A DNA stretch of 31,628 bases. It comes from a virus. The number at the start of each line of letters is the position of its first letter. Within the stretch, counting starts at the first letter, position 1. The position numbers were made by a program, and so were the translations under genes. Where the stretch lies: IMG/VR virus record IMGVR_UViG_3300037041_000681, positions 1 through 31,628 of that record; one strand, written 5' to 3'. Below, one piece after another: positions 19,126-31,628 of the stretch. The notes below the pieces were generated by a model. That model was not told the DNA's origin. It was given only the letters and a program-made list of their open reading frames with translations, and searched no databases.

Positions 19126-19132
19126 ATATATA
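19108..19132 (+). promoter_or_regulatory. Early-region promoter motif (GGGGA / ATATATA), copy 3
   Basis: GGGGA starts at 19108 inside the end of the zinc-protein gene and ATATATA at 19126, an 18-nt step. A transcript would begin near 19139, right at the GGAGG that opens the structured leader of the polymerase-like gene. Confidence 0.55.
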
Positions 19133-19137
19133 GTTAT

Positions 19138-19223
19138 GGAGGTTTTCATTCGTTAAAGGGTTGGAGTAGCTACCAACCCTCCTCCAAAAAAAAACGAATG
19201 TAAAAAAATAATTTAAACGAATG
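19138..19223 (+). promoter_or_regulatory. Structured leader with decoy start-stop before the polymerase-like gene
   Basis: GGAGG (19138-19142) pairs with CCTCC (19181-19185), and AGGGTTGG (19157-19164) pairs with CCAACCCT (19173-19180). CATTCGTT (19147-19154) lies in the bulge between them and is complementary to AACGAATG, which occurs twice: at 19193-19200 and at 19216-19223. The second includes the start ATG (19221); the first is ATG followed at once by TAA. Pairing with either copy would make a pseudoknot. An alternative TTGGAG (19161-19166)/CTCCAA (19182-19187) pairing also exists, so the leader could switch. A replication origin is another reading. Confidence 0.6.
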
Positions 19224-20462
19224 AACTCAGTTAAGAGATATATACCAGAGAAGGTATATGAAAAAATCCAAACATTACATTTTAAAAACAAAGAACACCT
19301 TTATGTCATATGTGATATGATATATCGCTCAACTATGTACAAAAAAGAAGATAAAGATTATTCTAACCAATATATCGATGTACCAAGATATTATTTTAGA
19401 GATATATTTGCTGATTATTATGTGTATATAGATTATTTAATTGAAAACTCAATTATACATTGTGATGGTATTTCTTCAAAAGAAGCTGGTAAGGCTTTAG
19501 GATATAAGTTTGATGACAGTTATATTTCTAAGTTAATAACTATTGAAGTTAAAAAACATACTACAGCTAAAAAGATTATTAAAAATAGGAATGACAGAAA
19601 TAATTTTGTCAATCAAGATTTACATATTTATAGAGAACATTTTTTAAATACATTCAAGATAGATTATGATAAAGCTATTGAATATTTAAATAAATGGTTT
19701 GATAAATCTATATCTAATACTAATTTAAACTCTTCTTATGTGGCAGGTTTTTTAGACCAAGAATACATAAAAATCTTGAATAAGTATAACCATATATTTT
19801 TATCTTTAAGTGCAATCAATGATGGAGATTTATTTTTTAGAAAAAATGACACAAATAATAGAATAGACACTAACCTTACTAGCCTTAAAAGTGAATATAA
19901 ACAATTTATAGTTAGTCAAGAAACATTATATCAAATTGACATAATAAACTCTCAACCATTTATTCTATCTCTATTATTAAACTCTTCTTATGTGGCAAGT
20001 TTTTTAGATAAAAAGGAATTAGAGAAATATACTGATTGGACTGGCTCTGGTTTATTTTATGAATTATTTGAAAAGACCTATAAAGAAAATACAGGTAAGA
20101 TTTTAAATAGAAAACAAATTAAAGATATGATGTTTTGTATATTCTATTCTAAGAATATATCATACAAAAAAGAAAAAGAAATATTTAGTAGTATATTCCC
20201 AAGTATAAGTAAATGGATTTCAGAACAAAAAGAAGATAATCATAATCAATTTGCTATAACACTTCAAAAAATAGAAAGTAAGATATGTATAGAAATTATT
20301 TGTAAGGAAATGGATAAAGAAAATATTAAATACTATACTATACATGACGCTTGGTTAGTAAATAAAGAAGACATACAAAAAACACAAAAAATAATTATGA
20401 GTAATTTCTATAAATACTTTAATAGAAGACCAGAAATGAAAATAGAAAAAATTGACTTTTAA
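19221..20462 (+). CDS. Family-A-polymerase-like protein (compact, divergent)
   Basis: A 413-residue protein with spaced motifs of the PolA/T7-RNAP palm. Motif A-like: IDIINSQP around D240, preceded by RIDTNLTSL (214-222), which resembles the template-binding T/R-x-x-x-N-L segment. Motif B-like: R297-x3-K301-x3-F305-x3-Y309, the same spacing as Klenow R754, K758, F762 and Y766. Motif C-like: YTIHDAW with H375-D376, where DNA polymerases have HDE and T7 RNAP has HDS. There is no 3'-5' exonuclease domain, and the N-terminal 190 residues are of unknown type. It is the only replication-type candidate in this genome. It may be a replicative DNA polymerase, an RNA polymerase or an inactive relative. 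Helix-rich flanks and the phenylalanine in motif B favour DNA synthesis; that is inference. Confidence 0.5.
   Translation: MNSVKRYIPEKVYEKIQTLHFKNKEHLYVICDMIYRSTMYKKEDKDYSNQYIDVPRYYFRDIFADYYVYIDYLIENSIIHCDGISSKEAGKALGYKFDDSYISKLITIEVKKHTTAKKIIKNRNDRNNFVNQDLHIYREHFLNTFKIDYDKAIEYLNKWFDKSISNTNLNSSYVAGFLDQEYIKILNKYNHIFLSLSAINDGDLFFRKNDTNNRIDTNLTSLKSEYKQFIVSQETLYQIDIINSQPFILSLLLNSSYVASFLDKKELEKYTDWTGSGLFYELFEKTYKENTGKILNRKQIKDMMFCIFYSKNISYKKEKEIFSSIFPSISKWISEQKEDNHNQFAITLQKIESKICIEIICKEMDKENIKYYTIHDAWLVNKEDIQKTQKIIMSNFYKYFNRRPEMKIEKIDF
19725..19756 (+). repeat. 32-bp direct repeat in the polymerase-like gene (copy 1)
   Basis: This stretch matches 19977-20008 at 31 of 32 bases. Both are in frame and encode LNSSYVA(G/S)FLD at residues 169-179 and 253-263. 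The copies are exactly 252 bp (84 codons) apart and bracket the motif A region. Confidence 0.95.
19977..20008 (+). repeat. 32-bp direct repeat in the polymerase-like gene (copy 2)
   Basis: The second copy of the in-frame repeat; the only difference is CAAG instead of CAGG. Recombination between copies would remove 84 residues including motif A while keeping the frame. Confidence 0.95.
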
Positions 20463-21739: not shown

Positions 21740-21952
21740 ATGAAAAACGAATGGAAAATGTGGGTAATCGACTTCATAGATTACATTAGTGAAAAACTCT
21801 ATCACGAGGACTACAAAAAAGAGTTAAACTCTATAAGAAACAAGTATATCTTTAAGGATATATCACACCAAGACTTCATTACGGATATAAAAAGACTTAA
21901 ACAAATCAAAGAGGTTTGTGAATACAAAACGCAGTTTTTCTACGAAAATTAA
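21740..21952 (+). CDS. Small unknown protein (70 aa)
   Basis: A 70-residue charged protein, helical throughout (MWVIDFIDYISEKLYHEDYKKELNSIRNKY ... FITDIKRLKQIKEV, given in parts). No motif is recognised. The start follows AAAAGAATATG. Upstream, ACCACTTTTGGAA and ATATATAGTATAAT form a possible promoter (21687-21718). It is 9 nt before the next small gene, so the two are probably co-transcribed. Hydrophobic and aromatic faces suggest it binds another protein, but this is only inferred from composition. Confidence 0.5.
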   Translation: MKNEWKMWVIDFIDYISEKLYHEDYKKELNSIRNKYIFKDISHQDFITDIKRLKQIKEVCEYKTQFFYEN

Positions 21953-30595: not shown

Positions 30596-31628
30596 ATGTG
30601 TATAGACTTAACAAATACAGAGTATAATAGATTAGACGCAGTTTCTAAAAAATATACTGATTGGAAGATATGTTCACTAACATTCTCAGGTGGTGGTAGT
30701 GGTTCAGTAGGTCCGACAGGTCCGACAGGTCCGACAGGTCCGACAGGTCCGACAGGTCCACAAGGCCCTCAAGGTGTAACTGGTTCAACAGGTCCAACAG
30801 GTTCACAGGGTATTCAAGGTGCGACAGGTCCTCAAGGAACTGGTGCTACTGGTCCTCAAGGAGCAACGGGAGCAACGGGTTCACAAGGTCCTCAAGGCCC
30901 TTCTACTGGTAAGACATACTGGTTCAATCAATCAACGACAGCAAGTGTGGTTGGATATTCTGTCTTAGGAACAATGCCAACAGGAGCCGTACAACAAACA
31001 GTAAGTGGTAATGTATCAGGTTCAAGTACTGGTAATTTAATAACAAGTTATATTACAGAAGAGTTAGGTTTTACAGTAATAAGAGGTGGTGAGCAGATTT
31101 TTCACTTACATTTCATTAAACCAGCTTCTAATGACCAACTCTATACTTATGTTGAATTACAGTTAGCAAACTCACTTGGAGTACCTTACCCTGGCGTATT
31201 CACAACTTCTGTGGAATACATTGGATGGAACTCTGGTAATCCTACTTTGGTACTACCAGAAATTACACTTTTGACTACGAATATATTAGCAACAGATAGA
31301 ATGATTGCTCGTATTTATATAAACAATTCAGACAGTACAAATCATAACTATACATTCTATACAGAAGGTGCTCAATACTACTCTTATGTTTTAACATCTT
31401 TAGAAATACTCGGAACTCCTGGCGCAACAGGAGCAACGGGAGCAACAGGTCCTCAAGGTATTCAAGGTGTTACAGGTCCTGCTGGTGCTACTGGTTCAAT
31501 AGGAGCAACAGGTCCTCAAGGTATTCAAGGTCCGACAGGCTCGAATGGAGCAACAGGTCCTAAAGGAGCAACAGGTCCAACAACTACTCTATATCCATCA
31601 ACTACTGTTCAAAGTTTTATTCAAAACT
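30596..31628 (+). CDS. Collagen-like tail fibre, 5' part (continues at 1-621)
   Basis: The start ATG at 30596 (followed by TGT ATA GAC) gives [20 protein letters not shown], a Gly/Ser linker, and Gly-X-Y repeats. These open with five identical GPT units (30710-30754), run for 14 triplets, break with a single GT, and go on for seven more triplets. A globular domain of about 165 residues follows (about 107-272), then a second run of 19 Gly-X-Y triplets (273-329) that carries across the junction. The full protein has 508 residues. The two-stalk layout, collagen-domain-collagen-domain, is suited to a long trimeric side fibre. The first domain is of no known family. It lies 10 nt after the small conserved gene. 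Confidence 0.85.
30710..30754 (+). repeat. Tandem 9-bp repeat (GGTCCGACA x5)
   Basis: Five exact copies of GGTCCGACA encode five Gly-Pro-Thr units at the beginning of the collagen stalk, before the code diverges to other triplet codons. Perfect tandem copies of 9 bp are prone to gain and loss of whole Gly-X-Y units without a frameshift, so stalk length could vary between isolates. Confidence 0.95.
31502..31628. repeat. Direct repeat of contig ends (right copy)
   Basis: Identical to bases 1-127. It shows that the sequence closes into a circle of 31,501 bp. Confidence 0.95.

Follow-up and report, generated by a model that had tools for sequence, protein, structure and literature searches.

A guide segment with two complementary copies in the leader of a TV-Pol-like polymerase gene: a probable expression switch in phages of Bacteroidota

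The phage genome and its polymerase gene

The window, i.e., the whole stretch of 31,628 nt analysed here, begins and ends with the same 127 bases (1–127 are identical to 31502–31628), and is therefore probably a complete phage genome of 31,501 bases (about 31.5 kb), circular or terminally redundant. Its gene products include a portal protein, a terminase, tail-fibre-like collagen proteins and methyltransferases. Because Nonlabens phages are found among the relatives of the portal protein and Flavobacterium genomes hold relatives of the polymerase gene described below, these affinities place the host probably within the Bacteroidota; the phage is kin of Flavobacterium phages. A polymerase of this kind was not found together with the portal relatives of this phage.

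A structured leader (19137–19225, plus strand) precedes, and at its 3′ end overlaps, a gene for a protein of 413 amino acids (19221–20462, plus strand). The original prediction had taken the ATG at 19221–19223 as the real start, which is supported by the homologues, as their alignments begin at that very residue. Pfam, PHROG, NCBIfam and PADLOC gave no informative match for the 413-aa protein. Its AlphaFold2 model (pLDDT 86.5) resembles, in Foldseek, the Pol I fragments of Bst and Taq (E about 1e-6) and also matches viral proteins, including the replication protein of the Zamilon virophage. R214, D240, R297xxxK301 and H375-D376 are invariant across 17 relatives. The hallmarks of TV-Pol are a beta-hairpin arginine, two palm aspartates and an RxxxK motif in the fingers (PMC2579912); in the window protein, their counterparts are R214, D240 and D376, and R297xxxK301. 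Enzymes of this type were proposed to be primase-polymerases of mobile elements (PMC2579912), and priming has been demonstrated for one TV-Pol branch (PMC10061031). Given the structural matches and the invariant TV-Pol residues, we assign the product, on its predicted fold and its sequence, as a replication enzyme, an A-family (TV-Pol-like) polymerase. With regard to a linked D5-like helicase, Pfam run on a subset of the window proteins gave no helicase. A role of the polymerase family in a defence system was considered and rejected (no match in PADLOC and NCBIfam).

The homologues, whose loci are numbered with the prefix L, were gathered by alignment-based searches of IMG/VR and of Bacteroidota genomes. 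Searches of viral and genome contigs with the single polymerase sequence returned no matches; an alignment including relatives from huge phages retrieved homologues where the single sequence had not. These huge phages of 595–735 kb (L010–L013; LR756511, LR745206, LR756501 and LR756502) carry distant relatives of the polymerase, with about 27–31% identity. In the genome of Rufibacter latericius (G012; L144, L151 and L154–L158), there are 13 matches to the polymerase profile, several of them less than 60 kb apart, which may be due to repeats of a mobile element carrying a TV-Pol.

Architecture of the leader and its occurrence in relatives

All elements of the leader lie on the plus strand. The outer stem is formed by TGGAGG (19137–19142) and CCTCCA (19181–19186), and is kept with other letters in the relatives. 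It encloses a bulge (19143–19156), which contains the guide CATTCGTT (19147–19154), and an inner hairpin (19157–19180) with the 5′ arm AGGGTTGG (19157–19164), the loop AGTAGCTA (19165–19172) and the 3′ arm CCAACCCT (19173–19180). Six A residues (19187–19192) separate the outer stem from copy 1, AACGAATG (19193–19200), which thus begins 6 nt 3′ of the stem. Copy 2 has the same sequence at 19216–19223, where it spans the start codon, and extends as AACGAATGAA to 19225; it makes 10 pairs with TTCATTCGTT in the guide region. On re-reading, all letters named in the original prediction, including the duplicated site, proved to be where it had placed them. AACGAATG occurs six times in the window, against 0.93 expected, and three of these occurrences fall within the leader.

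Three nucleotides 5′ of the outer stem lies a candidate promoter-like box, TATATAG (19127–19133, plus strand). Comparable TATATA boxes precede the element in L019, L021, L024, L194 and L200, and host-type boxes resembling TTGAC(A)..TATANT precede it in L101, L103 and L216. From their letters and position, these boxes, in the window as in the relatives, may act as promoters.

The leaders are so divergent that MAFFT does not align their stems correctly. Instead of a covariance model, we therefore used a descriptor of our own to score the plan as a unit, from the inner hairpin and the outer stem to the bulged guide and its two copies, of which the second is close to a start codon. The window leader scored 79; the maximum among 2000 dinucleotide shuffles was 60.4, only 15% of the shuffles giving any match, and the runner-up among the 454 candidate start codons of the window reached 64.8. 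The plan of the window leader is beyond chance. In a blind run over every ORF of every locus, with a score of 64 or more required, the descriptor picked out 21 of the 174 polymerase homologues as opposed to five of the 1452 other ORFs, the latter looking like chance matches. Scans of whole phage contigs found one convincing element per genome, ahead of the polymerase gene.

Counting the window, 27 leaders share the plan: it stands ahead of the polymerase gene, in unrelated letters, in at least 26 further Bacteroidota phages or prophages. The exact DNA pattern of the window's guide and copies was absent from the viral contigs searched, as expected since these letters change between phages. In the window, L021, L024, L194 and L200, the guide lies on the 5′ side (5′-guide arrangement). 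In the 3′-guide arrangement (L019, L023, L026, L101–L105, L189, L213, L214, L216, L217, L219–L221, L223–L225 and L228), it sits between the inner hairpin and the outer 3′ arm and usually measures exactly 7 nt, while L025 and L119 present the guide in a separate loop of its own. In most relatives, the pairing segment is the entire bulge of exactly 7 nt. L219 carries the element despite appearing to lack it: its ORF merely opens upstream. L030, L204 and L218 were left out of the count, since they offer no more than a guide in a loop, one copy instead of two, or weakly matching copies.

The element is absent in the close homologues L020, L099/L100 and L199; comparison of these loci therefore indicates that it is a dispensable control module and not an essential part of the enzyme. 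A tree of 146 homologues places the labelled leaders that bear the element in one region of 37 rows, together with those close members that lack it; the region has a support of 88 but is drawn open and is not firm. L119 and L228 are not among the labelled rows; the protein of L119 is that of row L037, outside the region, and either the plan arose more than once or this placement is a long-branch artefact. In another branch of the polymerase family (L161–L163, L166, L167 and L169), an ORF that by eye resembles an HTH DNA-binding protein precedes the polymerase in place of the RNA element.

The inner loop of several leaders consists of two bases followed by a six-base palindrome of varying letters: TAGCTA (window, L023 and L200), TAATTA (L019 and L213), TGATCA (L021), TGGCCA (L026) or TCATGA (L194), with TAATTG, palindromic if G.U pairs are tolerated, in L024 and L025. 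Such palindromes are absent from most of L101–L105 and L214–L225. Where present, they could allow loop–loop kissing, i.e., dimerisation, of two leaders.

Covariation, geometry and possible modes of action

That one upstream segment pairs with both copies had been predicted from the window sequence, and the test, fixed beforehand, was covariation in relatives. It came out strongly. When the guides of 26 leaders were scored against the downstream regions, the mean was 32.3 for a leader's own guide and 14.3 for swapped guides, and none of 100,000 permutations equalled the observed sum of own-guide scores. In 17 leaders of the 3′-guide arrangement, 118 of the 119 guide:copy 2 cells are Watson–Crick and none is G.U, and every one of the seven positions is occupied by two to four kinds of pair. 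Permuted partners gave a mean of 46% and at most 71%; the segments were marked out manually, and pairing is thereby favoured somewhat, but the permutation control used the same segments. The guide:copy 1 pairing is looser (94 Watson–Crick, nine G.U and nine mismatched cells). G.U thus accounts for nine of the 18 departures from Watson–Crick, where four would be expected under uniform change and 7.2 under transition-rich change, and these cells argue mildly for pairing as RNA.

Amongst close relatives, it is the guide and the copies that vary while the stems mostly stay. Between L220 and L224, the guide changes from TTTTGCC to TTTCGCC and both copies from GGCAAAA to GGCGAAA; between L102 and L189, the guide changes from TTTCTGT to TTCCTGT and copy 2 from ACAGAAA to ACAGGAA. 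One pair varies between A-T, G-C and T-A in L216, L217 and L221, and guide and copies also change jointly in L101/L103 and L105/L213, with the stems nearly unchanged.

The decoy start-stop of the original prediction did not survive this comparison. Copy 1 reads ATG-TAA in the window alone; in the relatives it has no ATG (e.g., AACAAGTG in L021, AAACAAATAG in L200 and ACAGAAA in L102), which rules out stalling of ribosomes on a single-codon frame as the conserved mechanism.

The gap between outer stem and copy 1 is 5–12 nt in nearly all leaders and A-rich, the link between the two copies ranges from 6 to 37 nt, and copy 2 keeps to −3 to +17 nt relative to the start codon. The hairpin thus sets the position of copy 1, and the start codon that of copy 2, which fits a two-state switch ending at translation initiation. 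If the outer stem is taken as S1 and the guide:copy 1 helix as S2, the layout would be that of a classical H-type pseudoknot; the pseudoknot that had been suggested for the window is thus compatible with the geometry of the relatives. Copy 2 is the stronger partner of the guide in 20 leaders, equal in five and weaker in one (n = 26). Nested folding, a model that leaves out pseudoknots, places the guide on copy 2 with a probability of 0.91–0.98 in the 5′-guide leaders; in the window, the guide pairs with the last 22 nt at 0.93 and the start codon is unpaired at 0.05. The same nested model, likewise without pseudoknots, gave mixed results for the 3′-guide leaders.

From these sequence comparisons, the element is probably a switch on the amount of polymerase, the role for which it had been proposed. 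The mechanism that we favour, and to which we give somewhat better than even credence, is that the structured 5′ leader of the polymerase mRNA gates translation through mutually exclusive pairings of the guide. In the leaders compared, the outer stem and the inner hairpin display a short single-stranded guide, complementary to both copies and able to pair with only one at a time. Paired with copy 1, it would form a compact H-type pseudoknot (the outer stem, the guide helix and an A-rich third loop) that leaves the start site accessible (ON); paired with copy 2, it would mask the start codon or the ribosome landing site just 5′ of it (OFF). In several relatives, copy 2 lies 9–17 nt 5′ of the start codon, so that occlusion of the start would there be only indirect. 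Since pairing with copy 1 would come first on the nascent RNA and copy 2 is usually the stronger partner, expression might be confined to fresh transcripts; alternatively, a factor could favour one state, and this might be the polymerase or another copy of the leader working in trans. Such control would benefit the phage by holding the replication enzyme, and hence phage copy number, low.

The chief alternative is a tentative one: the hairpin and guide might be released as a stable small antisense RNA for immunity or copy control, like the CI RNA of P4 or the C4 RNA of P1 and P7. It would pair with copy 2 on other polymerase transcripts, blocking translation or ending transcription, while copy 1 would bind the guide in cis and leave repression to unbound guide RNA alone, made in proportion to copy number or supplied by a resident prophage; the diversity of guides would then be immunity specificity. 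The plan is in fact one that P4 and P1 share, i.e., the leader of a replication or anti-immunity operon with a stem-loop RNA that is complementary, over a short segment, to two places in its own transcript, and rapid change of guide and copies on nearly constant stems would be expected. Moreover, the best plus-strand complement of the window's guide lies in another gene: a candidate second target, AACGAATGGAAA (21746–21757, plus strand; 12 nt with one G.U), covers codons 3–6 of ORF 21740–21952, 3′ of a TATATATAG box. This hint is, however, confined to the window: a second trans target did not recur in nine other phages; there, the sense strand usually offers the guide no better target than copy 2. 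Furthermore, we identified no terminator or processing signal between hairpin and gene, the Rfam models for C4 and isrK found no match, and P4 has one target upstream of its RNA, whereas both lie downstream here. A broader combination of the two readings appears doubtful. In it, the leaders would be guide RNAs that Bacteroidota phages encode for themselves, a class both widespread and undescribed, with a fast-changing, exact guide of 7 nt or longer acting both in trans and in cis on the polymerase transcript; this would give the phages copy-number control and immunity groups, the latter readable from the guide letters.

The replication proteins of T4 repress their own mRNAs, and the gene downstream of the leader encodes a replication protein; the polymerase or another phage protein might accordingly bind the hairpin, through a loop of the GUAGCU or GUAAUU type, and lock one pairing. 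Certain loop letters do recur (AGTAGCTA in the window, L023 and L200; AGTAATTA in L019 and L213; TAGCT in L102 and L189). Yet L021, L026, L104 and L194 have others, homologues function without the element, and autoregulation alone leaves two exact copies unexplained: as an explanation in its own right, it is unlikely. Such a protein could nevertheless be the effector in either the switch in cis or the antisense mechanism in trans.

It is highly improbable that guide and copies are three repeats (one of them inverted) of a protein-binding site on DNA, e.g., replication iterons, the hairpin being there by accident. In favour, the gene serves replication, and repeats of a single site would likewise be alike within a genome and different between genomes, but iterons would not account for stems that are maintained with different letters, for guide ends that coincide with the stem ends in the 3′-guide leaders (usually at exactly 7 nt), for the G.U by which copy 1 often departs, or for copies whose strand and order are kept, as is their spacing from the hairpin or the start codon. 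Hardly credible is a guide serving as a template or primer segment for a polymerase that starts synthesis at the copies: TV-Pol-type enzymes were proposed or shown to be primases (PMC2579912, PMC10061031) and guide and copy 2 pair free of G.U, but the close homologues L020 and L099/L100 keep intact catalytic residues while lacking the element. The conserved ligand-binding core of a metabolite riboswitch is missing: apart from the loosely recurring loop, the leaders share no conserved letters.

Relation to described leader RNAs

None of the 4227 Rfam models matched the window or the loci of 13 relatives at the gathering score, and at a relaxed E-value there were chance matches only, in line with the original view that no standard element has this plan. 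We found no description of the element in Rfam and the open-access papers searched, a scope that an older subscription paper could escape. The RNA control element is real and apparently undescribed; it would work like known leader switches of phages and plasmids.

Close in plan is P4, whose CI RNA has two partners, seqA and seqC, in its own transcript (PMC4825925). Like it, the element is a structured RNA in the untranslated leader of a replication gene, with one segment complementary to two sites of that transcript. In P4, however, one site lies on either side of the RNA and pairing terminates transcription, whereas both sites are downstream here and the second is at the start codon; the two show no sequence or covariance-model similarity. 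The C4 RNA of P1 and P7 (RF01695) pairs around the ribosome-binding site of the ant mRNA, and heteroimmunity results (PMC12197685). It is also a small structured phage RNA with short pairing segments, but it controls an antirepressor operon in phages of Proteobacteria, and no homology to the C4 or isrK covariance models was detected.

Another comparison is with the rep leader pseudoknots of IncI, IncB and IncL-M plasmids (works cited in PMC10724649). There, as would be the case in the window leader, translation of the replication gene is controlled by the pairing of a hairpin segment with a site before that gene. In the plasmids, the pseudoknot activates translation, an antisense RNA blocks the pseudoknot, and a leader peptide is involved; a duplicated target like the one seen here is not known in them. 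Alternative pairings also govern ribosome access to the start site in the leader of the MS2 maturation gene. In the mRNA of a type I toxin of Helicobacter pylori, metastable sequestering structures control ribosome access during transcription (PMC6733600). These two concern other genes and structures and are not known to have a guide with two copies conserved across families.

The leaders constitute an RNA family with unusually clear covariation, tied to a single replication gene in Bacteroidota phages and prophages; little is known of gene control in the phages of this group. Should they act in trans, they would be the Bacteroidota counterpart of the antisense immunity of P4 and P1, and immunity groups would be predictable from seven letters. 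Bacteroidota mostly initiate translation without Shine–Dalgarno pairing; should the leaders act in cis, they would be a compact two-state translation switch in such hosts. In either case, the element is short and testable, and might serve for tuning expression in Flavobacterium. Close to the start site, four relatives (L023, L101, L103 and L104) carry an out-of-frame ATG just 3′ of copy 2, exactly 7 nt before the start of the gene (ATGxxxxATG or ATGxxxxGTG).
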